Positions 4,296 through 64,000 of a stretch of 64,000 bases of DNA are shown here, piece after piece. A program made the position numbers and the translations under genes. Numbering within the stretch: the stretch's first letter is position 1; each line of letters begins with the position of its first letter. Under the pieces are notes generated by a model. The model worked only from the letters and a program-made list of their open reading frames with translations. It made no database searches and was not told the DNA's origin. This stretch comes from Bryobacterales bacterium (GTDB taxonomy: Bacteria > Acidobacteriota > Terriglobia > Bryobacterales > UBA6623), in contig JAJDZN010000057.1 of assembly GCA_022824585.1 (NCBI GenBank), positions 1 through 64,000 on the forward strand, in the 5' to 3' direction.

Positions 4296-5238
4296 CTGCC
4301 GCCGGACACTGGCCGCGCTAGCCTTGGCCGCCTTCGCGCTGCCGGCGCAATCCTCCGGCCGCGAAGTCAGCGCGCTGGAGGCGATCGGCTGGAAGCTCTT
4401 TTTCGACCCGCTGCTGTCGAAGCCCCGCAATACTTCCTGCGCGAGCTGCCACATTCCTGAGAATGGTTTTGAATCCGGCGTCGCTCTCGGCGAAGGCGCC
4501 TATGGCGACACGCTGCCGCGCAACGCTCCGACCGTGGTCAACCTGGCCGACGCCGAGTTTTTCTTCTGGGACGGCCGGGCCGGATCTCTCGAAGAACAAG
4601 CCAAGGGTCCGATCGAGAACCCGATCGAGATGGACCTCGCTCTCGACGAAGCGGCCCGGCGCGTACGCGACGAAGCGGCCTATGCCAGGGCCTTCGGGCA
4701 GGCTGGGATCGACGACATCACGATCGAGGCGATCGCCCAGGCGATTGCCGCCTTCGAGCGCGGGCTCGCGACCGGTCCGACACTGTTCGACAAGTGGCTC
4801 GCGGGAGATCGCTCGGTCTTTAACGAAGCGCAGGAACGAGGGCGCATGATCTTCTTCACGCGGGGCCAGTGCGCCACCTGCCATTTCGGCCCGAACTTCA
4901 CGGACGGAGCGTTCCACAATATCGGCACGGGCACGGCGGACGACCCCGGCCGTTCCGAGATCAGCGACGACGACTACGATATCGGCGCGTTCAAGACCCC
5001 GGCGCTGCGCAACTGGAGGGGCCGCGAGCCGTTCATGCACGACGGCCGGTTCGAGACGCTGGACGACGTGCTCGCGTTCTACAACGAGCCCAAGACGGAC
5101 GCCTTGGGACAGACTGAACTCGACCCGCTGGACCTGAGCGAGCAGGATCACTCCGACATCAAGGCATTCTTCGAAACCCTCAACGGCGCATGGCCCGATC
5201 TGGCACCTTACGAAGCGGCTTGGCAAGCCCTGCAATAG
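4288..5238 (+). CDS. Di-haem cytochrome c peroxidase / MauG family protein
   Basis: This is a 316-residue exported protein with two haem c sites, CASCH (Cys51, Cys54, His55) and CATCH (Cys195, Cys198, His199). The surrounding motifs are typical of bacterial cytochrome c peroxidases: RNAPTVVNL, FFFWDGRAGSLEEQA, NPIEM and FKTPALRN followed by PFMHDGRF. It reduces peroxide with electrons from a small cytochrome, or oxidises a partner protein as MauG does. The start overlaps the end of the propeller gene, placing it in the same operon. With a binding protein, a propeller and no visible PQQ dehydrogenase, a role in oxidising or maturing a periplasmic partner is possible but is inference. Confidence 0.9.
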   Translation: MTSCRRTLAALALAAFALPAQSSGREVSALEAIGWKLFFDPLLSKPRNTSCASCHIPENGFESGVALGEGAYGDTLPRNAPTVVNLADAEFFFWDGRAGSLEEQAKGPIENPIEMDLALDEAARRVRDEAAYARAFGQAGIDDITIEAIAQAIAAFERGLATGPTLFDKWLAGDRSVFNEAQERGRMIFFTRGQCATCHFGPNFTDGAFHNIGTGTADDPGRSEISDDDYDIGAFKTPALRNWRGREPFMHDGRFETLDDVLAFYNEPKTDALGQTELDPLDLSEQDHSDIKAFFETLNGAWPDLAPYEAAWQALQ

Positions 5239-5268
5239 CCGCCGGGCCGCAGCGGGAGTCGTGAGGCC

Positions 5269-6477
5269 GTGACCCTGGACGAACGCAAGTGGCGGGAGTG
5301 GACCGCTTGGTCCGCCCTCGGCGCCACTGCCGCGAACTTCGCGTCGATCGCCGCATCCCATAGCATTCTGGGCGCCGGGCTGGGACTGTTGCTGCTGCGG
5401 CCGCGGGCAGTGCGGCTGCCGCCTGTCGCCTGGCCGCTGATTGCTCTGCTGGCGTGGACCCTGGTGTCCGCCGCTGCCTCGGCTGACCCGGCGGCGGCTC
5501 TGCCCCAGATCAAGAAGCTCTACGTGTTCGCGATCCTGCCCCTGGCGTACACCGCGCTGCGCACGGCGGACATGTGCAGAAGGGCGACGGAAGCTTGGTT
5601 TGTCGTGCTCGTAGCCGCCTGCGGGCTGGCCATTGCCGAATTCGGCGCATCGGCCGCCAGCGAGTTGGGGCGGGGCGGAGATTTCCACGGCCTGCTGATC
5701 GCCGACCGCATCCGAGGCTTCTACAGCCACTGGATGACGTTCAGCCAAGTCGCGACCCTGGGCGCTCTGACCCTGGCCTGCTACCTGCTGTACGGGCGCC
5801 GGCGCCCCGGATCCGGGATCTGGTTCGCCTGCGGCGTCGTGATGGCAGTCGCGCTCGTGCTCAGCTTCACGCGCAGCGCCTGGCTGGCCCTGCTGGTCGG
5901 CGGGCTGTATCTTTTGGCCAGCGCCAAGCCAAGGGCGCTCGCGCTCGTGCCGGTTGCCGCCGCCGCGCTGTACTTCTGGGGGCCGGTCGGCCTGCAGGAA
6001 CGCATCCGGTCCATCCGTCCCGAGGCCAATCAATCACGCATCGTGATGTGGCGCACCGGTCTGAACATGGTCGCGGCCCACCCCTTGCTGGGAGTCGGAC
6101 CCGAACGTGTAGGACCGCGGTTCGCAGAATTCCAACCGGAAGATGTCGAAGAGCTCCCGCCCGGATTCTACGGGCACCTGCACAACCTGTACATCCACTA
6201 CGCGGCCGAGCGCGGCGTTCCGGCCGCGCTCATGGTCCTGTGGCTGTTCGGGCAGATCCTGTTCGACATGCGGCGCGGCTTGAAACGGCTGCCGGAAGCA
6301 TACGACGACCGCCGCTTCCTGCTCCAGGCCGGCGCAGCCGGGACGCTGGTCATGGCCGTCCTGAGCTGTTTCGACGTCACCCTGGGAGACAGCGAGGTGC
6401 TCGCAGCGTTCCTGGCGCTGGCGGCCGTCGCCTACCGCGGCCTGGCCGAGACACCCTCCGGCTCGAGCGCAGACTGA
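5269..6477 (+). CDS. O-antigen ligase family membrane protein
   Basis: The 402-residue protein has about ten hydrophobic segments and a large loop holding FYGHLHNLYIHYAAERG around residue 300. This carries the His-Asn motif of the Wzy_C/WaaL family. Such proteins transfer or polymerise polyprenyl-linked glycans at the periplasmic face of the inner membrane. The start is a GTG at 5269, 30 bases after the peroxidase stop. There are no sugar transferases around it to say which glycan is used, so ligase cannot be told apart from polymerase. It may belong to the preceding operon by spacing only. Confidence 0.82.
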   Translation: MTLDERKWREWTAWSALGATAANFASIAASHSILGAGLGLLLLRPRAVRLPPVAWPLIALLAWTLVSAAASADPAAALPQIKKLYVFAILPLAYTALRTADMCRRATEAWFVVLVAACGLAIAEFGASAASELGRGGDFHGLLIADRIRGFYSHWMTFSQVATLGALTLACYLLYGRRRPGSGIWFACGVVMAVALVLSFTRSAWLALLVGGLYLLASAKPRALALVPVAAAALYFWGPVGLQERIRSIRPEANQSRIVMWRTGLNMVAAHPLLGVGPERVGPRFAEFQPEDVEELPPGFYGHLHNLYIHYAAERGVPAALMVLWLFGQILFDMRRGLKRLPEAYDDRRFLLQAGAAGTLVMAVLSCFDVTLGDSEVLAAFLALAAVAYRGLAETPSGSSAD

Positions 6478-50300: not shown

Positions 50301-51806
50301 TCAGCCGCGCTCTCCGTATTGGTCCCTCAGGCGCGCGAGTTCCGACTGCAGCTCCTGGACCAAACCGGCGTGGCCGGGCTCGGCGGAAAGGTTGCGCAGC
50401 TCGTCAGGATCCTCCTGCAGGTCGAAGAGTTCCCAATAGTCGCCCTCCCCGTAGTATTCGATCAACTTGTAGCGGTCGGTGCGGACTCCGCGATGCGGGC
50501 CCACTCGGTGCGGAGTCCAGTACTGGAAGCTCGGGTCCGTCATTTGCTCGCGGGCCATTTCGCGAAACGCCCACGAGTTCTCGTAGTAGCTGTACAAGAT
50601 CGAGTCCCGCCAGTCGTCTGGCGGGCTGCCCTCCAGCAGGGGCCGCAAGCTGCGGCCCTGCATCTGGCCGGGCACGCCGACGCCGGCGAAATCGAGCAGC
50701 GTCGGCGCGATGTCGATGTTGACGGCCGGGCGGGCTTCCACCTGGGCGGCCGCCACCAGGCGCGGGTAGCGCACGAGCAGCGGGACGCGCAGCGCCGGCT
50801 CGTACATGAAGCGCTTGTCGTACCAGCCGTGCTCGCCGATGAAATAGCCGTTGTCTGTCGTGTAAAGCACGAGAGTGTCCTCGGCCAAGCCAGACGTGTC
50901 CAAGTAGTCGAGAACGCGGCCGAGTCCTTCGTCAACGCCGTAGACAGCCCGATGGTGGTCCTTGGCAAAGCGCTGGTAGATCCATTCGCGCTTCTGGCCC
51001 GGACTCAAGCCGGGCGGCAGGTCAGCGTAGTCGCCCTCTAGGCTGATCTCGAAACGCATGTCGCGCGCCTCGGCCGCCACTCGTCGAGTGGCGTAGTCGT
51101 CGTCATAGGTCGACGGCTTGGGCCAGTCGATGTCGGCGAACATATCCGCATGCCGGGGAGCTGGCGTGAACGGTCGATGCGGGGCCTTGTGCTGGTACAG
51201 CAGGCAGAACGGCCCCGCGCCGCCGCGGCGCAGAAAGTCGAGGGCGAAGTCGGTCGTGATGTCAGTGGCATAGCCGGACTCTTTGCTCGGCTGCCCGTTC
51301 ACGACGAAGTCGGGATCGAAGTAGACGCCCTGTCCGGGCAGCACCTTCCATTCGTCGAAGCCGCGGGGCTGCTGGCGCAGGTGCCACTTGCCGACCAGGC
51401 CGGTGCGATAGCCGGCCTGCTGGAGCAATTGCGGAAACGTCGGCAGGCTCGGGTCCAGCTCTTCCACGGCATCGGCTTTCTCGGAATTGCCGCGGATTCC
51501 GTGGACATGCGAATAGCAGCCCGTCAAGACGGTGGCCCGGCCCGGCGCGCACAGGGAGTTCGTGCAGTAGGCATTCGCGAAGCGCGCCCCTTCGCTGGCC
51601 AGGCGGTCCATGCTGGGCGTCTGCAGCAGCGGATGGCCCGCGCAGCTCATCTGCGAGTGCTGCTGGTCGTCGGTCATCACCAGCAAGATGTTGGGGCGCG
51701 GCGCGGTCGAGCCCCCGCACCGCGTTAGAAACGCGGCCGCACCGCCCGCAAACGACTGCAACGCCCGCCTGCGGGTGAGAGCTGATCTAGAGATTAGGTC
51801 TTGCAT
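50301..51806 (-). CDS. Exported sulfatase (formylglycine-dependent), second copy
   Basis: The 501-residue protein has a Tat-like leader (LTRRRALQSFAGGAAAFL) and the sulfatase fold. The active-site motif is SLCAPGRATVLTG with Cys86 (CxPxR) and metal ligands in MTDDQQH (Asp46, Asp47) and YTTDNGYFIGEHG. LFDLQEDPDELRNL closes the protein. It differs clearly from the copy at 15685 and probably has another sulfated substrate. The ATG at 51806 starts 13 bases inside the upstream enoyl-CoA hydratase gene, so the two are coupled. Confidence 0.92.
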   Translation of the reverse strand: MQDLISRSALTRRRALQSFAGGAAAFLTRCGGSTAPRPNILLVMTDDQQHSQMSCAGHPLLQTPSMDRLASEGARFANAYCTNSLCAPGRATVLTGCYSHVHGIRGNSEKADAVEELDPSLPTFPQLLQQAGYRTGLVGKWHLRQQPRGFDEWKVLPGQGVYFDPDFVVNGQPSKESGYATDITTDFALDFLRRGGAGPFCLLYQHKAPHRPFTPAPRHADMFADIDWPKPSTYDDDYATRRVAAEARDMRFEISLEGDYADLPPGLSPGQKREWIYQRFAKDHHRAVYGVDEGLGRVLDYLDTSGLAEDTLVLYTTDNGYFIGEHGWYDKRFMYEPALRVPLLVRYPRLVAAAQVEARPAVNIDIAPTLLDFAGVGVPGQMQGRSLRPLLEGSPPDDWRDSILYSYYENSWAFREMAREQMTDPSFQYWTPHRVGPHRGVRTDRYKLIEYYGEGDYWELFDLQEDPDELRNLSAEPGHAGLVQELQSELARLRDQYGERG

Positions 51807-52612
51807 GTCTCCGTTCCTCCGCCCTTGGCGGCCAGCCAAGGCGCGCGCCCCTTGTCCAAGAAGGCGCGCACCCCGGCACGCCCCTCGTCCGTGGACCTCC
51901 GCTCCGCCAGGACCTGCGCGGTCCGGTCGCGGATATCGTCGTCCAGCGGATTGTCTGCAATCTCGCGGACAAGCTCCTTGCAGGTAGCCAATGCGCCCGG
52001 AGCGCCCCTGAGCATGCGCTCAGTCATCTTCTGGGTCGCTGCATCCAAGGCCGTCGCCGGAACCACCTCGTCAACGAGTCCCCACGCTTGCGCGCGGCGC
52101 GCATCGACCCGCTCGGCAGTCAGCATCAGGCGCCGCGCCACCTTGGTGCCAAGCACTTCGACCAGATACGGGCCCACCATCGCCGGCACGAGTCCGAGCT
52201 GCACCTCGCTCAGGCGGAAGAAGGCATCCTCTGAAGCGACCGCGACATCGCAGCAAGCGACCAAGCCGACGCCACCGCCCACCGCTGCGCCCTGAACGCG
52301 GGCTACGGTCGGCTTGGCCATCGCGTGCAGCAGCCGAAGCATCTCGACGAAGCGGCGGGTGTCGGCCAGGTTCTGGGCCGGGTCTGCGGCACCCATGCGG
52401 CGCATGGCACGCAAATCGGCGCCGGCGCTGAAGCAGCTTCCGGCACCGGCCAGCTGGACCACCCGCACGCCGGAATCCGCCGCCAGCGACCGCAGCTTGT
52501 CCGAAAGCTCCTCGACCGTGTCATTGTCGAGCGCATTGCGGACTTCCGGGCGGTCAAGCACCAGGGTGGCCACGCACGCGCTCCGCTCAACGCGCACCCG
52601 AGGGGTCGGCAT
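51794..52612 (-). CDS. Enoyl-CoA hydratase/isomerase family protein
   Basis: The 272-residue crotonase-fold protein has the CoA-oxyanion segments FSAGADLRAMRRMG and VQGAAVGGGVGLVACCDVAVAS. The SEVQLGLVPAMVGPY segment resembles methylglutaconyl-CoA hydratases of leucine breakdown, with Glu in the usual place. The ATG at 52612 is preferred to the TTG two codons before it; TATCAT lies eight bases upstream. No other leucine degradation genes are near, so the exact acyl-CoA is unknown. Confidence 0.87.
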   Translation of the reverse strand: MPTPRVRVERSACVATLVLDRPEVRNALDNDTVEELSDKLRSLAADSGVRVVQLAGAGSCFSAGADLRAMRRMGAADPAQNLADTRRFVEMLRLLHAMAKPTVARVQGAAVGGGVGLVACCDVAVASEDAFFRLSEVQLGLVPAMVGPYLVEVLGTKVARRLMLTAERVDARRAQAWGLVDEVVPATALDAATQKMTERMLRGAPGALATCKELVREIADNPLDDDIRDRTAQVLAERRSTDEGRAGVRAFLDKGRAPWLAAKGGGTETCKT

Positions 52613-52642: not shown

Positions 52643-53134
52643 TCAGCGACGAACCGGAACCGTGACGGGCAGTGTCTTGGGCGGCAGGCAGGCTTTGTCG
52701 TTACACGCCTGGAAGCGGAGCGAGCCTCGCAGCTCGCCCATATCCGCGGGCACGGACTCCACATGGAAGGTTGTCACGATCTCGACGCGCGACGAGTACA
52801 CCGATAGCGGCTTGTCCGAGAAGTCGTACTTAACCTCCTCGGCGGGCGGGTAGGAGACAGACTCGACGCGCAGCGGAAGAACGTCGGGCCAGGACAGGTG
52901 GGTCGGGATTAGGTATGGATCGTTCGGCCTGTCGGAATTGATGTGGTAACCGCGGCGGATGCGAACCGTGACCGGGACTCGCAGCGGTCCGGGTCCGGTG
53001 ATCCGAATGCCCGGGCCGGGCTCGATCGTGGCGGCCGAGAACCCCAGCTGCTGGGCCGACAGCTGAGCGCCAAGCAGCGCGAAGAGCGCGGCAACAGCCT
53101 TGAGCGGGGTCGCGCTAGAGCGATGCCGTGGCAT
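52643..53134 (-). CDS. Stand-alone DsbD N-terminal (alpha) domain, exported
   Basis: The 163-residue protein has a signal peptide and an immunoglobulin-like domain. It ends with RFQACNDKACLPPKTLPVTVP, whose two Cys match the redox pair of the DsbD N-terminal domain. Full DsbD also has an eight-helix membrane part and a thioredoxin part; both are absent here. It overlaps the end of the TlpA-like gene by 20 bases, so the two are probably produced together and may exchange electrons in the periplasm. A CcdA/DsbD membrane part elsewhere would be required. Confidence 0.85.
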   Translation of the reverse strand: MPRHRSSATPLKAVAALFALLGAQLSAQQLGFSAATIEPGPGIRITGPGPLRVPVTVRIRRGYHINSDRPNDPYLIPTHLSWPDVLPLRVESVSYPPAEEVKYDFSDKPLSVYSSRVEIVTTFHVESVPADMGELRGSLRFQACNDKACLPPKTLPVTVPVRR

Positions 53135-53666
53135 TCATGTCCAGCAGAACCTCGATCTCTTCCTCGTACGTCGCCTTGGCCACCAAGCCTTGGTGGGTGA
53201 AAACGATCTTGCCCGCCTGGTTCACGATCAGTGTGGTGGGCAGCACCATGATGCCGCCAAAGGTGTCCGAGACAGCGTCATCGCCCAGCAAGACCGGAAA
53301 GTTGAATTCCATCTTCTCGGCGAACTCGCGCACCGGGTCCCAGCCATCCTCGTCGAGAGAGACCGCCAAGACGGTAAAGCCGCGATCCTTGTACTGGCGC
53401 TGGAAGTCGACGAACCACGGCATCTCGATCTTGCAGGGGCCGCACCAAGTGGCCCAGAAGTTGATCAGGACGACCTTGCCTTCGATATCGGCGTTGGTGT
53501 GCGTCTTGCCGTCCAAGTCCCGCAGGCTGAACTCGGGGATTGATGGGTTGGCGGAGTCTGCCGCGGCCGCGGCAGGATTGCCGTCCTCGTCTGGCATGGG
53601 GCCGATGCCGCACGCAAGGGCGAAGACCATCGCGACGATGGCCAGAAACAGCGCGGTTCGTTGCAT
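53115..53666 (-). CDS. TlpA-like thioredoxin-fold lipoprotein
   Basis: The 183-residue protein has a lipobox (VFALAC), a Pro/Ala-rich spacer, and a thioredoxin fold with NFWATWCGPCKIEMPWF (Cys75, Cys78) and the cis-Pro in IMVLPTTLIVN. It resembles ResA/TlpA disulfide reductases used in cytochrome c maturation, fitting the multi-haem proteins in this window. It overlaps the DsbD-alpha gene. Start is ATG, with a weak TCTACT ~10 bases before it. Confidence 0.92.
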   Translation of the reverse strand: MQRTALFLAIVAMVFALACGIGPMPDEDGNPAAAAADSANPSIPEFSLRDLDGKTHTNADIEGKVVLINFWATWCGPCKIEMPWFVDFQRQYKDRGFTVLAVSLDEDGWDPVREFAEKMEFNFPVLLGDDAVSDTFGGIMVLPTTLIVNQAGKIVFTHQGLVAKATYEEEIEVLLDMNATASL

Positions 53667-57677: not shown

Positions 57678-59552
57678 ATGCGTCGCTTAGCTCAGTATCT
57701 GATCGTTCTGTCGTCGCTAGCGATATCGTCTGCTACCGCTCACTTTACGCCACGGTGTCACGACGCGAGGATCAGCGCCAGTGAGGTCACCACAGAGCGT
57801 GACGTCAAGCTTTTCGTGGAGTGCGCGGCAGAGTTTCTCGCTGAAGTCGGCCCGGCCGAGGCACGCCGCGCGTTCAACGAGGATGTCCGCTGGAAGCACG
57901 GCGCGACCTACGTGTTCGTTGTCGAGGTCGGCACGTCTGGTGTAACGTCTAGGCGGTTTGTCTTCCCGCCGATCCCTTCCGCGGAAGGCAAGCCGCGAGG
58001 GGCGCCTCTGGTTGATTTCGGAACGGACCTGTACGCCGAAATCTATCGCGCGATGGACGTGGTCGACGAAGGGTGGTTCTACTACTCGACCCCTAATCCC
58101 CAGACCGGAAACAAGGAGTTCAAGCTGTCGTACGTGATTGAAATCGACTGGAACGGAACGCGTGCCGTCATAGGGGCCGGTCTCTACGCCCGCGACTTGC
58201 CCGGCACCTGCCATGCCTCGGACGTCAGCGCCTCGATCGTCAGCGCCAGCATGAATGACCTGCGCCTGCAGGAGTTCGTGCGCTGCGCCGCGATGATGGT
58301 GGAGAGCCGAGGCTATTTTGCGAAACAGGAGCTGGAAACCAACCCGAGGTGGTCCAGCGGGGGAACTAACGTCTTCGTGCTCGACATGATGGGCAACCAA
58401 GTCATGTCCAGCAACCGCCTGAGGATCAACGGCATTGCCCCCCACGAATGGGGGCTGGAGTCCGGGGCGGTCCAGTTTGGCGAGCGCGACTTGACTGGCG
58501 TCGGGGAGGTGTTCGGAGAAGCGTTTGTCTACTACCGGTCGTACCACCCCGAGACATGGGCCTATCAGCCGAAAGTCGGCTTCATGAAGCGTGTGGTAGC
58601 GCAGGGAGTGTCCCTGCTCGTCGGCGCGGGCTATTTTCCCGACACCCAACAGGCTGAACAGGGCGCAACTTGTTCGGACGACTACGCGACTGCCCCGGCG
58701 GTGCGCAGCCGGGACGACATTGAAGCGTTCGTGCGCTGCGCAGTGGAGTACGTGGCCCAGCATGGAGAGGAGGAAGCGCACAGGGCATTCACCCAAGACG
58801 AGCGCTGGAGGCACGGTCCGACGTATCTGTTCGCGTTTGACAAGGCAGACTCAGGCTTTGACTCGACCCCTTTCGTGTTCCCGCCGGATACTACGCGGGA
58901 GGGCTCGACCTTTGGAGCGATCATTGATGGGTTCGGGAACGACTTCTTTTTTGAGATTGACCGAGTATTGTCTCTTGTGGATTCCGGATGGATCCACTAC
59001 GCCTTCACCAACCCGGCGACTGGGCTACATGAGCCGAAGGCTTCCTACATGGTCAATATCAATTGGAATGGCACCCCGGCCTTTATCGGAGCGGGCGTCT
59101 ACGAGCGCAGTCTTCCCGGCACCTGCGATCCGACCGAGGTCAGCGCGGCCCTGCTTGAGTCGGATCAGACCGAAGCCAGACTCCGCGAGTTCGTCAACTG
59201 CGCGGCCTATCAGGTCCAGTCATCCGGCTACTTCGCAGGCCCCGTGCTGACTACCGATCCTCGCTGGAAGCACGGTTCGATCTATGTGTTCGCCTTCGAC
59301 GCGAATACTGGTGAGATCGTCTTCAGTGGCAACCCAGCGAGCTCTGCGGTGTCCCGGCGCATTCCAGAACTGCTGTTCGGAGGTCGGGACATGCTCGCGG
59401 CCACGGCCAAGTTTGGCTCTACCACCTGGTATTACAACTTCAATAACCCCGCTTCTGGGACGGTCGAGCCGAAACTCGGATTTACCAGGCTAGTTATGGC
59501 ACAGGGGGTGCCCGTGATCATCGGTTCCGGGATCAACGCGGTTTCGGACTGA
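57678..59552 (+). CDS. Exported protein with four tandem Cache-like sensor domains
   Basis: The 624-residue protein has a signal peptide (residues 1-21) and four repeats of ~145 residues (about 24-172, 176-322, 330-478 and 481-622). Repeats 1, 3 and 4 end in Cache_2-like GAGLY/GAGVY/GSG segments after K-x-S-Y or K-x-G-F. Each repeat has two Cys (27/49, 178/203, 332/354, 483/508) that probably form a disulfide. Repeats 1 and 3 resemble each other (FVFPP, DWNGT/NWNGT, LPGTC), as do 2 and 4 (GYFA, KVGF/KLGF, VAQGV/MAQGV), so a two-domain unit was duplicated. There is no transmembrane or signalling domain. It may be a soluble ligand carrier or sensor. Family by pattern only; ligand unknown. Confidence 0.75.
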   Translation: MRRLAQYLIVLSSLAISSATAHFTPRCHDARISASEVTTERDVKLFVECAAEFLAEVGPAEARRAFNEDVRWKHGATYVFVVEVGTSGVTSRRFVFPPIPSAEGKPRGAPLVDFGTDLYAEIYRAMDVVDEGWFYYSTPNPQTGNKEFKLSYVIEIDWNGTRAVIGAGLYARDLPGTCHASDVSASIVSASMNDLRLQEFVRCAAMMVESRGYFAKQELETNPRWSSGGTNVFVLDMMGNQVMSSNRLRINGIAPHEWGLESGAVQFGERDLTGVGEVFGEAFVYYRSYHPETWAYQPKVGFMKRVVAQGVSLLVGAGYFPDTQQAEQGATCSDDYATAPAVRSRDDIEAFVRCAVEYVAQHGEEEAHRAFTQDERWRHGPTYLFAFDKADSGFDSTPFVFPPDTTREGSTFGAIIDGFGNDFFFEIDRVLSLVDSGWIHYAFTNPATGLHEPKASYMVNINWNGTPAFIGAGVYERSLPGTCDPTEVSAALLESDQTEARLREFVNCAAYQVQSSGYFAGPVLTTDPRWKHGSIYVFAFDANTGEIVFSGNPASSAVSRRIPELLFGGRDMLAATAKFGSTTWYYNFNNPASGTVEPKLGFTRLVMAQGVPVIIGSGINAVSD

Positions 59553-60239: not shown

Positions 60240-61595
60240 TCAGACAAGCAGCTGGGGAATGAGCCCGCTGCTGTCGGCGAAGCGATCAAGCCCAAGCCCC
60301 ATGGCCTTGGCCTGCGACAGCCACAGATTGGCCAGCGGAGTGCCCTCCGCGCAGTGCAGGTGCTGGCCGAGCTTGAACTTGCCGGAGCCCGCGCCGGCGA
60401 TGATGATCGGCAGATCGTTGTACTGATGCGTGGCGCCGTCGCCCAAGCCCGATCCATAAGTGAAGACCGTGTTGTCGAGCAACGTCGAGCCGTCAGCCTC
60501 TTGGATGCTGTCGAGCCTCTCGAGGAGATAGGCGAACTGTGCCACGTGGAAGCGGTCTATGCTCTCCAGCTCGTCCCCGTATTCCTGCTGCTGGTGGGAG
60601 ATCAGGTGATGGCTGATGGGCTTGTCGAAGAGCCCCTCGAACATAAACGGGGTGTTCCAGCGCTCGGGGCCCACCATCAGCGAGGCGACACGCGTCAACC
60701 CCGTCTGGAACGCAACCACGATCAGGTCGCACATGAGGCGGATGTACGCTCCCCGCGGCAAGTAGGCCTCGGGCGGCTCGGGAATCGATACCTCCAGCAA
60801 CTCGCCCTTGAGGCGCTCGAACCGGTCCATCTGATTCTCGATCGTGCGAATCGACTCGAAGTACTCCGCGAACTTTTCACGGTCGGCATGGCCGAGTTCC
60901 CGCTGCAGCGACCGGGCGTCCTCCAGCACCAGATCGGTTATGTTGCGGACCTGGTCCACCTCTTGCGTGCCGAACAGCCTGCGGTAGGCCTTGCGCGGGT
61001 CACGGATCGACGGCGCGACATGTCCCGTCCCATACCAAGAGATGTTGTCGAAATAGATCGATTCTTGGTTGTCCTGATGGCTGTTGCAACTGAACTCCAG
61101 CGTGCTGAAGGGAGTCGTCTGCCCGATCTGATCTGCCACGACGTGATCGAGCGTGCGCTCCAACGGCCAGGCAGACGAGGTCACCGTGAACGGCGCGGCG
61201 CTGCTCAGGAAGCACGAGGCGCACTGCGCGTGAACGTCGGTGCCGATCTGGAACTGGCGGTCCAGCCCCGTGACCAGAGCGACCTTGTGTTGGACGGTCG
61301 CCAGTGGCTCGAGCGTCGGCGTGAGCTTGATCGGGTGGGAGCCGACCTGTGTCGTGGTCTCGATGATGGCGCTGAAGTCGCCGTTGAATGCCGGCAGGCC
61401 TGCATGGCCCTCGCCCGGGAAGAAGGCGCGGCGCACGACTCCAATCGGCACGTAGAAGAATCCCAAGCGTTGGGGCGGCTGGGACTGCTGCTTTGACCGC
61501 CGCGTCGCTGCCGGCGCAATGCTCTCCAGCCAGGGCAGCCCGAGCACGGCGCCGCCTGCGCCGCGCAGAAATGACCGTCTCGACGTGATGCGCAT
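60240..61595 (-). CDS. Tat-exported DUF1552 protein
   Basis: The 451-residue protein has a Tat signal (ITSRRSFLRGAGGAVLGLP) and the DUF1552 body: RLGFFYVPIGVVRRAFFP, GLDRQFQIGTDVHAQCASCFL, YGSGLGDGATHQYNDLPIIIAGAGSG. The C-terminal region recalls sulfatase-like or DUF1501 folds. The family nearly always sits beside DUF1592 cytochromes in Planctomycetota, Verrucomicrobiota and Acidobacteriota, and its function is unknown. It starts 13 bases after the DUF1592 stop, so they form an operon. Confidence 0.93.
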   Translation of the reverse strand: MRITSRRSFLRGAGGAVLGLPWLESIAPAATRRSKQQSQPPQRLGFFYVPIGVVRRAFFPGEGHAGLPAFNGDFSAIIETTTQVGSHPIKLTPTLEPLATVQHKVALVTGLDRQFQIGTDVHAQCASCFLSSAAPFTVTSSAWPLERTLDHVVADQIGQTTPFSTLEFSCNSHQDNQESIYFDNISWYGTGHVAPSIRDPRKAYRRLFGTQEVDQVRNITDLVLEDARSLQRELGHADREKFAEYFESIRTIENQMDRFERLKGELLEVSIPEPPEAYLPRGAYIRLMCDLIVVAFQTGLTRVASLMVGPERWNTPFMFEGLFDKPISHHLISHQQQEYGDELESIDRFHVAQFAYLLERLDSIQEADGSTLLDNTVFTYGSGLGDGATHQYNDLPIIIAGAGSGKFKLGQHLHCAEGTPLANLWLSQAKAMGLGLDRFADSSGLIPQLLV

Positions 61596-61608
61596 GAGGC
61601 CGCTCGGC

Positions 61609-63693
61609 CTAGAGGGCCGCCCTCTCTAGCTTAGCCGGGCTGTGCTTGCGCTGGAACGGCTCGCTGAGCACGATCTGCATGATCATGTGCTGGAGCCGGA
61701 ATCCCGCCGGCGCCGTTTCCCGCACGATCCGGTCAAGTGCCGGCTGGTCCGACGCATCCACTGCCCGGCCGAGGGCGAAAGCCAGCAGGTGCGCGGCGAA
61801 AGCGCGCGCGAAGCGGTCCTTCTCGGCCAAGATCGCGTCCTTGAATTCCACGATGTTGTCGAACTGGTGGCGTCCGAAGAGCAGGCCGGCCGAGTCCACC
61901 TCGCGGCCGTTGTCATACGTGTCCCGCCATACTCCGGTCGGTCCGTAGTTCTCCAAGGCGAAGCCCAGCGGATCGAGCTTGGCATGGCAGGCCGCGCAGT
62001 CCGGGTTGGACCGGTGTTGCTCGAAGATCTCTCGCAGGGTCAGGTTCGCCGCCCGGCCGCCTGCCGCCTCGTCGGGGAGGGGCGGCACGCCGGCCGGCGT
62101 GGGGTCGGGCGGGTCGTTGAAGATGACACCCGCGAGCCAGGCTCCGCGCGTGATGGGCTGCGTTCGCAGCGGGTTCGACGTCATTGTCATGACCGCCGCG
62201 GTGGTGATCACGCCGCCCTGGCGGCGGTCGGTGATGGGGACCCGGCGAAACGGGACCGCTGTCGGCGGCACCTTCGCCGGACGGGTGCCGTCGCGGTACC
62301 ACGAGTCCAGCAGCTCGCTGCGGTAGCTATAGTCCGAGTCGACCAATTCCAGGATCGAGCGGTTCTCGACCAGGATGGTCTCGAACAGCAGCAGGGGCTC
62401 CAGCATCATGTGCATGCTGGCCCGGAACTTTGCGAAGTAGAAGTCCGGGTGCCGTTCGCGGTCGGGCACCGAGGCCACGATGCGTTCGAGCTGGAGCCAT
62501 TGCGTGGGAAAACTGTCGCAGAATCGCTTCAGGCGGGGGTCCTTCAGCATGCGCTCCACCTGCGCCCGCAGCACGGCGGGGTCGCCCAGGGTGCCCTGGG
62601 CGGCCAGGTCGAGCAGGGCTTGGTCCGGAATGCTGCCCCAGAGGAAAAACGACAGGCGCGACGCGAGCTCGAAATCGTCAAGTTGCCGGGCTGCCTCGCC
62701 GGAGCCGGCCCGCTCGTAAAGGTAGAGGAAGCGCGGCGACGCCAAAGCGGCCGAGACAGCCGCCTTCATGCTGTCGGCGTAGGACTGTCCGGATTCCATC
62801 CGCGCGGCGACATGGCGGGCATAGCGCTCGAGGAGGGCGTCGTCAGCCGGCCGTCGAAACGCCCGCGTGAGGAAGTCGCGCAAGGTCGCTCTGGCCACAG
62901 TGCCGGTGGTTTCCGATTCCGGCGGCGGCGCGAACAGCCGCTCCCATGCGCCGCTGGTCAACCTGTTGAAGTCCGCGCTGTCGAGAATGGACCTGCCGAG
63001 ATTGAGGAACGACGCCATCAGCAGCGGGGACAGAGTGAGATGGTCGCCGCGGTTGTCGAAGCCGTGCTCCGCCCGCAGGTCTTGGGGAAACGGGGCAACG
63101 CCGGCCAGCCGCTTGTCGATCAGCTGCGACTTGCCGAGCGGACGGCTGCCGACCTTGAGCTCGTCGGGCATGCGGCCCGACTCCGGACGGAAGTGGCCAT
63201 AGGATCGCAGCATGCGCTCGGGCAGCGCGAAGACGTCGATTCGCAGATCGAGCAGGTCTTGGACCGCGTTGTTGTACTGGAACCGGTTCATGCGCCGCAT
63301 CGGCGTGTGAGGAAGCGCGGCCCGCGGGTCCAGCGTTCCGTGCAGCAGCTTGCGCAACTCTGCCACGAGTCGCTGGCGCTGCTCCGCCGCCAGGCGGGGC
63401 TCGCTCTCCGGGGGCATGATCCCCGAGTCGAGGGCTTCGACCAAGTTCCGCAGCAGCTCGGGATCGTTGGTGAGGTCTGAGGCGCTGTGAAGTCTCGACA
63501 GGTCGACGTTCCCGAACAGATTGCCGCCTTCGCCGTGGCACTTGACGCAACTCTGGCGAAATACCGGCTGGAGAACGCTCTGCAGGACGTCACCCTTGGC
63601 CGCCACGAGAGATGGCACCGCGAAAATCGCTGCTGCAACGAGACAGATCCAGCGAGCACCCCAGGCAAATTGCCGAAACACGACCTGCATCAT
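61609..63693 (-). CDS. DUF1592-family multidomain c-type cytochrome
   Basis: The 694-residue protein has a signal peptide and an N-terminal CVKCH haem site (Cys49, Cys52, His53). The DUF1587/1592/1588/1585 chain typical of Planctomycete-type cytochromes follows: RRMNRFQYNNAVQDLLDL, FLTRAFRRPADD, DFELASRLSFFLWGSIPD and CAACHAKLDPLGFALENYG (second CxxCH). It should carry electrons from an unknown periplasmic oxidation. Start at the double ATG (63693); a longer frame to 63786 lacks a signal at the start. It is followed by the DUF1552 gene. Confidence 0.93.
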   Translation of the reverse strand: MMQVVFRQFAWGARWICLVAAAIFAVPSLVAAKGDVLQSVLQPVFRQSCVKCHGEGGNLFGNVDLSRLHSASDLTNDPELLRNLVEALDSGIMPPESEPRLAAEQRQRLVAELRKLLHGTLDPRAALPHTPMRRMNRFQYNNAVQDLLDLRIDVFALPERMLRSYGHFRPESGRMPDELKVGSRPLGKSQLIDKRLAGVAPFPQDLRAEHGFDNRGDHLTLSPLLMASFLNLGRSILDSADFNRLTSGAWERLFAPPPESETTGTVARATLRDFLTRAFRRPADDALLERYARHVAARMESGQSYADSMKAAVSAALASPRFLYLYERAGSGEAARQLDDFELASRLSFFLWGSIPDQALLDLAAQGTLGDPAVLRAQVERMLKDPRLKRFCDSFPTQWLQLERIVASVPDRERHPDFYFAKFRASMHMMLEPLLLFETILVENRSILELVDSDYSYRSELLDSWYRDGTRPAKVPPTAVPFRRVPITDRRQGGVITTAAVMTMTSNPLRTQPITRGAWLAGVIFNDPPDPTPAGVPPLPDEAAGGRAANLTLREIFEQHRSNPDCAACHAKLDPLGFALENYGPTGVWRDTYDNGREVDSAGLLFGRHQFDNIVEFKDAILAEKDRFARAFAAHLLAFALGRAVDASDQPALDRIVRETAPAGFRLQHMIMQIVLSEPFQRKHSPAKLERAAL

Positions 63694-64000
63694 GACAGCG
63701 CCTTCGAGGGCCCGCCGAATCGAGCCAGCCAGGCTCGCGGGCCAAGCCCCGCCGGAGGGGCTTCGGAAGATGCTCCCTCCGCTCAAGTTAGTGCGATTGT
63801 ACCGAAGCGTGCCGCCAATCGGGGCACGAAGTTCCCACCTGCGCGCGGCGGCCTTGGTGTCACCGGCGAGATGAAGCGGTGGCGTGCAGCCTAGTCGGAC
63901 GCCGTGCGCGTGGCGCTCCCTGATGCCTTGAGCCGATGCCCGCTCTTGATCAGAAACCCGCGGAGGTCTTGACGTCGGCTGTTGGCTGAGCGGCGCGTAG
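63694..64000. other. Intergenic region to window end, no gene recognised
   Basis: This upstream region of the DUF1592 gene contains TACAAT on the minus strand (complement of ATTGTA, 63796-63801) as a possible -10 with a ~100-base leader. Short open frames lack motifs. Confidence 0.45.

Follow-up and report, generated by a model that had tools for sequence, protein, structure and literature searches.

Cache domains are described almost wholly as parts of receptors. A survey published in 2016 identified them exclusively together with output domains and held that an extracellular Cache domain signals only through a C-terminal membrane helix (PMC4822843). The models of that survey drew only on sequences already bearing an output domain (PMC4822843), and receptor-free Cache proteins could thus have been missed by design. 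The receptors most pertinent here are chemoreceptors with sCache_2 domains that recognize acetate, propionate or pyruvate, namely Adeh_3718 (4K08), PscD (5G4Y) and VP0183 (2QHK/4EXO). In PscD, the carboxylate is held by Tyr90, His103, Tyr143 and Lys156 (PMC5062169).

Cache domains free of such receptors have nonetheless been on record since 2004, when a stand-alone Cache gene was reported (PMC549065). Exported single-Cache proteins are annotated in Proteobacteria (Azospirillum WP_014188966.1, Indioceanicola WP_119681585.1), and proteins of 160-195 aa with a leader and a Cache domain, likewise devoid of a membrane or output part, are present in other Acidobacteriota. Our literature searches on stand-alone or soluble Cache proteins yielded nothing beyond the 2004 remark and annotations in databases. 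The single exported Cache protein on the Azospirillum lipoferum plasmid AZO_p2 (L162:1408-1872, plus strand) lies between genes for a cytochrome c-550 PedF/PQQ alcohol dehydrogenase and those for an ABC substrate-binding protein and permease, and is a candidate carboxylate-linked accessory protein.

Extracellular Cache domains that bind small molecules without an intracellular output domain are also found in animals, in the calcium-channel alpha2/delta subunits and CACHD1, which are membrane-tethered channel subunits with a VWA domain. A gabapentin site has been noted on alpha2/delta (PMC549065). In Dret_0059 of Desulfohalobium retbaense (5ERE, annotated as an ‘extracellular ligand binding receptor’), a dCache domain lies within an extracellular binding protein, occupying residues 322-562 in its C-terminal part (PMC8694187, table). 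Finally, proteins with SBP_bac_5 and SBP_bac_3 domains offer a functional rather than a structural comparison, being exported, soluble and ligand-binding.

The protein considered here is encoded in a draft metagenome-assembled genome of a member of the Bryobacterales (6.2 Mb in 341 contigs, contamination 6.4%), on contig C49, of which the first 64,000 nucleotides constitute the window, that is, the whole stretch that we analyzed. Its features, all on the plus strand of the window, are as follows:

57678..59552 (+): exported four-Cache protein, 624 aa, stop included (open reading frame; Pfam dCache_2/sCache_2; AF2 model)
57678..57743 (+): predicted signal peptide, about residues 1-22 (MRRLAQYLIVLSSLAISSATAH), without a lipobox (inferred from a hydropathy scan)
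57750..58202 (+): Cache domain 1, type A, residues 25-175, Cys27/Cys49 (profile match 3e-53; pocket mapping)
58203..58652 (+): Cache domain 2, type B, residues 176-325, Cys178/Cys203 (profile match 2e-44; pocket mapping)
58665..59117 (+): Cache domain 3, type A, residues 330-480, Cys332/Cys354 (profile match 6e-54; pocket mapping)
59118..59546 (+): Cache domain 4, type B, residues 481-623, Cys483/Cys508, ending at the C-terminus of the protein (profile match 5e-47; pocket mapping)

An earlier, sequence-only reading had proposed a secreted protein with a signal peptide and four Cache-like repeats, each with its own cysteine pair, that ends with the fourth repeat and lacks any membrane or output part; the open reading frame, the hydropathy scan, the cysteine positions and the Pfam matches all agree with this. 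Residues 4-22 form the sole leader-like hydrophobic stretch of the 624-aa protein and are predicted, from hydropathy alone, to be a type I signal peptide without a lipobox. The leader stays hydrophobic among the orthologues while its sequence drifts fast. Beyond it the scan found no membrane helix in the protein: the highest later 19-aa window scores 1.48 and falls at residues 605-623, on a buried strand of the sheet in the AF2 model. Hence, the pair of membrane helices that flanks the Cache domain of receptors is absent, the leader being the only hydrophobic part, and the Pfam search returned Cache domains only, with neither an output signaling domain nor a solute-binding (SBP) profile on this chain. 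A leader followed by Cache domains and nothing else is also the layout of the stand-alone exported Cache proteins.

Taken over the whole protein, the Pfam models dCache_2 (8.2e-14, 51.9 bits, cut-off 26.5) and sCache_2 (8.6e-14, 52.2 bits, cut-off 25) both match above their curated cut-offs, with the best stretch at residues 373-477 in Cache domain 3. An AF2 model (m1ac5cce9faa5), built from eight relatives, has a mean pLDDT of 75.9 and a pTM of 0.71; confidence is low in the leader, a few loops and the linkers, those between domains falling below 50. All four modeled repeats run helix-helix-strands-helix-three long strands, and on this model the Cache/PAS fold, with its N-terminal helix and central sheet, extends throughout the protein. 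A Foldseek comparison of the model with the PDB gave long multi-domain matches mostly to PAS/Cache structures, including calcium-channel alpha2/delta and CACHD1 at ranks 3-11; this likeness is structural, and we claim no close sequence kinship with either. The closest solved single domains to the model are carboxylate-binding sCache_2 domains, namely 4K08 (TM 0.70, 3.1 A over 145 columns), 4EXO (TM 0.69) and 2QHK (TM 0.68), with TM normalized by target length. Further, a profile of 18 family domains matched only 4K08 (2.9e-9), 5G4Y, 2QHK and 4EXO in the PDB. Neither outcome that would have refuted the sequence-only reading, a lack of Cache matches or a non-Cache fold, was thus observed.

The four repeats, of about 145-151 aa, each open with a cysteine pair spaced by 21-24 residues; this spacing does not suit c-type heme attachment, the motif of which is CxxCH. 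In global alignments assessed against shuffled sequences, domains 1 and 3 share 46% identity (Z=33) and domains 2 and 4 share 35% (Z=24), while the four A-B pairings reach only 26-34% (Z=10-14). The A-A and B-B scores lie so far above the A-B scores that the A-B-A-B order is real and far beyond chance, and the proposed duplication of a two-domain unit is borne out both by these alignments and by the separate A and B clades of the domain tree described below. The two like pairs are not equally alike as had been implied: the grouping stands, but the A domains are much closer to each other than are the B domains.

The sCache_2 chemoreceptor domains share with this protein not only the profile and the fold but also, in most of its domains, the equivalents of Tyr90, Tyr143 and Lys156. 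With the PscD pocket positions mapped through 4K08, domains 1, 3 and 4 keep these three of the four pocket residues, and domain 2, which has Asn at the Tyr90 equivalent here and in three orthologues, keeps Tyr143 and Lys156 (two of four); the loss of one pocket tyrosine from the first B domain is a detail on which the sequence-only reading had differed. The His103 equivalent is replaced in all four domains. Across the family, Tyr90 is kept in 82 of 83 A and 76 of 81 B domains, Tyr143 in 78/83 and 76/81, and Lys156 in 81/83 and 79/81; ranked by conservation, the three residues stand 12th, 32nd and 19th of 151 columns in A and 22nd, 23rd and 16th of 140 in B. The His103 position holds Phe or Tyr in 80 of the 83 A domains and Ser or Thr in every one of the 81 B domains, and a replacement so class-specific and so conserved suggests a shift in specificity more than degeneration. 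The cysteine pair is as characteristic: 82 of the 83 A domains and at least 80 of the 81 B domains carry it, and the outgroup sCache domains lack it. The additional N-terminal domains of five- and six-Cache proteins, which have no cysteine pair, retain His103 in 13 of 14 cases. In the AF2 model, the first cysteine lies in the linker before the first helix and the second inside that helix, a placement that leads us to propose a disulfide staple. The protein therefore differs from the chemoreceptor domains in its extra cysteine pair, in having Phe/Tyr or Ser/Thr in place of His103, in its four tandem copies, and in having neither flanking membrane helices nor an output domain. The stand-alone single-Cache proteins differ from it in having one domain, no cysteine pair and a mostly typical pocket with His103. 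Dret_0059 likewise has no Cys-type A-B unit.

Roughly a dozen more loci of this family lie elsewhere in the host genome, several cut by contig ends, and every sCache_2/dCache_2 match that we found in it belongs to this soluble family. The paralogues include five- and six-Cache proteins (L009 and the truncated L013 and L015), a four-Cache protein (L010), a two-Cache protein (L014), a tandem pair (L012), a fusion to a solute-binding protein (L011) and a broken copy (L019). Every one of the 11 genomes of the genus has the Cys-type family, in expanded form. Order-wide, only 16 of 257 genomes gave matches, two of them only distant, and in a phylum sample of 297 genomes close relatives outside the taxonomic family were limited to two f21 genomes, f21 being another family; a tblastn search of plasmids with the protein gave no match. 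The bins of the relatives (RHO3, SB066x) suggest an origin in what we take to be sponge metagenomes. The soluble layout is general: among 117 distinct ORFs from the family and the outgroup, none has a 19-aa hydropathy above 1.8 after the first domain, a leader-like stretch is present in 95 of the 107 complete ones, and no kinase, MCP or cyclase part was seen on any family member.

A tree of 212 domains recovered the Cys-type set (96), with A (97) and B (100) clades. The nearest paralogue domains of Cache domain 1 are first A domains. For the most part, domains taken from two-domain A-B proteins branch off outside the four-domain set, in which first and second copies tend to separate, and the simplest history that the sequences suggest is that the A-B unit came first and was then duplicated in the lineage of the genus, with later exchange. 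Two proteins of another Bryobacterales family (L094 in G187 and L095 in G430) likewise comprise a leader and four sCache_2 domains at a similar length; however, they lack the cysteine pairs, match sCache_2 far more strongly (234.8 and 230.2 bits) and fall in another clade. A multi-Cache layout without cysteine pairs elsewhere in the tree indicates that this layout arose at least twice. On the side of recent change, genome G535 has two arrays of five tandem two-Cache genes each (L091:4772-10912, minus strand; L147:2798-7814, plus strand), in which the ends of neighboring reading frames overlap; their B domains are nearly identical, which points to duplication or gene conversion in the recent past.

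Orthologues at 83% identity (L023-L025) keep the whole architecture, the locus and the upstream gene order, and against them the Cache gene shows a dN/dS of 0.17-0.19, close to the 0.07-0.17 of neighboring genes; domain 2 is the most constrained of the Cache domains (0.09-0.11). The gene is thus under purifying selection (dN/dS about 0.18). Over 57678-59549, synonymous divergence from the same three loci is about 0.5, against about 0.3 for the neighboring genes; the excess may reflect gene conversion from paralogues or a different codon constraint.

The neighborhood itself gives no functional link: the neighbors encode a cyclase, a DUF3604 protein, a NIPSNAP protein and an HXXSHH/DUF1552 protein, and the downstream side varies between orthologues. 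At 60240-63786 on the minus strand, the HXXSHH (DUF1552) gene adjoins a DUF1592/1588/1585/1595/1587 cytochrome-type gene, and a sulfatase lies at 50301-51839, an array that we presume to be the one familiar from Planctomycetes. Four kb upstream of the Cache gene, at 52643-53666 on the minus strand, are genes for a DsbD N-terminal-type protein and a TlpA/redoxin-type thioredoxin; a role in handling periplasmic disulfides would suit a protein with four cysteine pairs, though their position may be a coincidence.

The domain architectures of sister proteins are more informative. On contig C333 of the same genome, A-B-A-B is followed by a complete SBP_bac_5 domain (L011:7431-11033, plus strand; 9.8e-54), the only SBP_bac_5 of the genome, and this four-Cache fusion recurs in most members of the genus. 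A single A-B unit is joined to SBP_bac_5 in G536 (L093) and, in the different family f21, in G024 (L100). Other A-B units are joined to an SBP_bac_3-like part, in genera g169 (L091:4772-6802, minus strand; E 5.5e-5), g1 (L148:3630-5663, plus strand; E 5.5e-7, the best and above the cut-off) and g170 (L152:3176-5140, minus strand; E 3.7e-5). This part is broken by long insertions, such that 132 profile positions extend over about 280 residues, and it is kept in all three genera. Yet other partners are DUF192 (COG1430; 6.4e-25), following A-B in the single-contig genome G550 (L089:3985-5364, minus strand), and FN3, preceding a divergent A-B-like pair (L153). In G024, exported Cache proteins (L158:1954-4545 and 4602-5879, plus strand; L159:301-2202, plus strand) are followed by a repeated C-terminal module, ‘LDFAHFANGG...IYFYD...GVLRFD’, without a Pfam match in L158:1954-4545.

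On this basis we regard the window protein as an exported, soluble, multi-site small-molecule-binding protein of the scavenger or solute-binding kind, with a probability of roughly 0.57. This is the reading best supported by the sister proteins, as they join the A-B unit to periplasmic solute-binding proteins, and it accords with the multi-ligand binding or scavenging role earlier put forward; unlike SBP_bac_5 and SBP_bac_3 proteins, the window protein has no SBP fold of its own. The single exported Cache protein of Azospirillum, with an ABC substrate-binding protein and permease next to it, is a precedent. The leader would direct it to the periplasm, where each cysteine pair would form one disulfide per domain, pinning the linker to the long N-terminal helix and so providing the stabilization that receptors gain from membrane anchoring. 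The pockets, with Tyr/Tyr/Lys and with His103 changed to Phe/Tyr in A or Ser/Thr in B, would bind small polar, probably carboxylate-bearing molecules, those of A and B probably being tuned to different ligands. Up to four pockets of two kinds might then buffer, concentrate or hand on solutes in the manner of a solute-binding protein, with no signal relayed across the membrane by the protein itself. The candidate recipient would be a transporter, an outer-membrane receptor, or none. Counting against such binding are the match to only three of the four pocket residues and the loss of His103 nearly everywhere in the Cys type, joined in domain 2 by that of Tyr90. A simple uptake role is further weakened by the transport genes: none of the 11 genomes of the genus has OppC_N, sought as the Opp/Dpp partner, and in most of them SBP_bac_5 is confined to the Cache fusions. 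The usual oligopeptide uptake role is hence probably unavailable in the genus, and the fused SBP_bac_5 must serve another partner or none. No transporter gene lies beside the window gene and no ABC permease beside the L011 fusion gene, and the permeases of the host look, by eye, like MalFG, Pot, polar-amino-acid and ProU types.

The sequence-only reading had also entertained a detached sensor of another receptor, which would bind its ligand in the periplasm and then dock, in LuxP-like fashion, on a separate histidine kinase, anti-sigma factor or TonB-type receptor. Cache domains act as sensors nearly everywhere else (PMC4822843), and a stand-alone Cache gene is on record as sharing an operon with the gene of a ligand-gated channel (PMC549065). 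An outer-membrane-barrel gene does lie shortly downstream at two orthologous loci (L024, L025), but it is missing from the corresponding place in the window, where no receptor gene adjoins the Cache gene. A search for MCPsignal found no MCP signaling domain in the host genome, and a chemoreceptor is therefore not supported as the partner. The receptor option is weakened further by the sCache_2/dCache_2 matches of that genome, all of which belong to the soluble family. At least 10 scattered family members with different fusions are ill-suited to one dedicated receptor, and the fusions to solute-binding proteins suit capture better; docking on a receptor of some other kind strikes us as unlikely.

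Slightly less probable still is a structural or adhesive repeat, in which the Cache fold would serve as a surface scaffold or protein-protein interaction module with degenerate pockets. The tandem repeats with added cysteine pairs, the FN3 fusions and a lineage-specific expansion in apparently sponge-associated bacteria would fit such a role, as would the missing Tyr90 of domain 2 and the lost His103. However, the lysine and both tyrosines are among the better-conserved columns, His103 is swapped in a conserved manner particular to each class, and a fused solute-binding protein is atypical of adhesins. That the gene is a pseudogene or a receptor cut by misassembly, as a draft assembly of this contamination and some broken paralogues (L019; in G550 at 574 kb) might suggest, is ruled out by the orthologues and by selection, since the full-length architecture and its stop recur in a near-identical genome and in the three orthologues at 83% identity, which share the gene order upstream, the dN/dS is low, and the family is also found in the single-contig G550.

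The multi-site binding reading bears on how the Cache superfamily is viewed. The claim that a soluble Cache protein would be new for the family holds only in part: stand-alone Cache proteins were known, both as the gene of 2004 and as single-domain exported proteins, whereas the tandem Cys-type family with its fusions to solute-binding proteins departs from the 2016 survey and was not found in the literature that we searched. This A-B family is clearly a conserved and expanded counter-example to the picture of Cache domains as coupled only to outputs, and its fusions to solute-binding proteins provide a built-in clue to its function. More tentatively, the Cys-type A-B unit may be a new bacterial solute-binding module, a former receptor sensor now used in the periplasm to carry ligands, either free or fused to an SBP, in which a disulfide replaces the membrane anchor, and which operates without a standard Opp transporter and has expanded in acidobacteria apparently associated with sponges. 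If the pockets do bind ligands, the commonest extracellular sensor domain of prokaryotes would also be a carrier or scavenger, opening the question of which sponge metabolites such bacteria collect.
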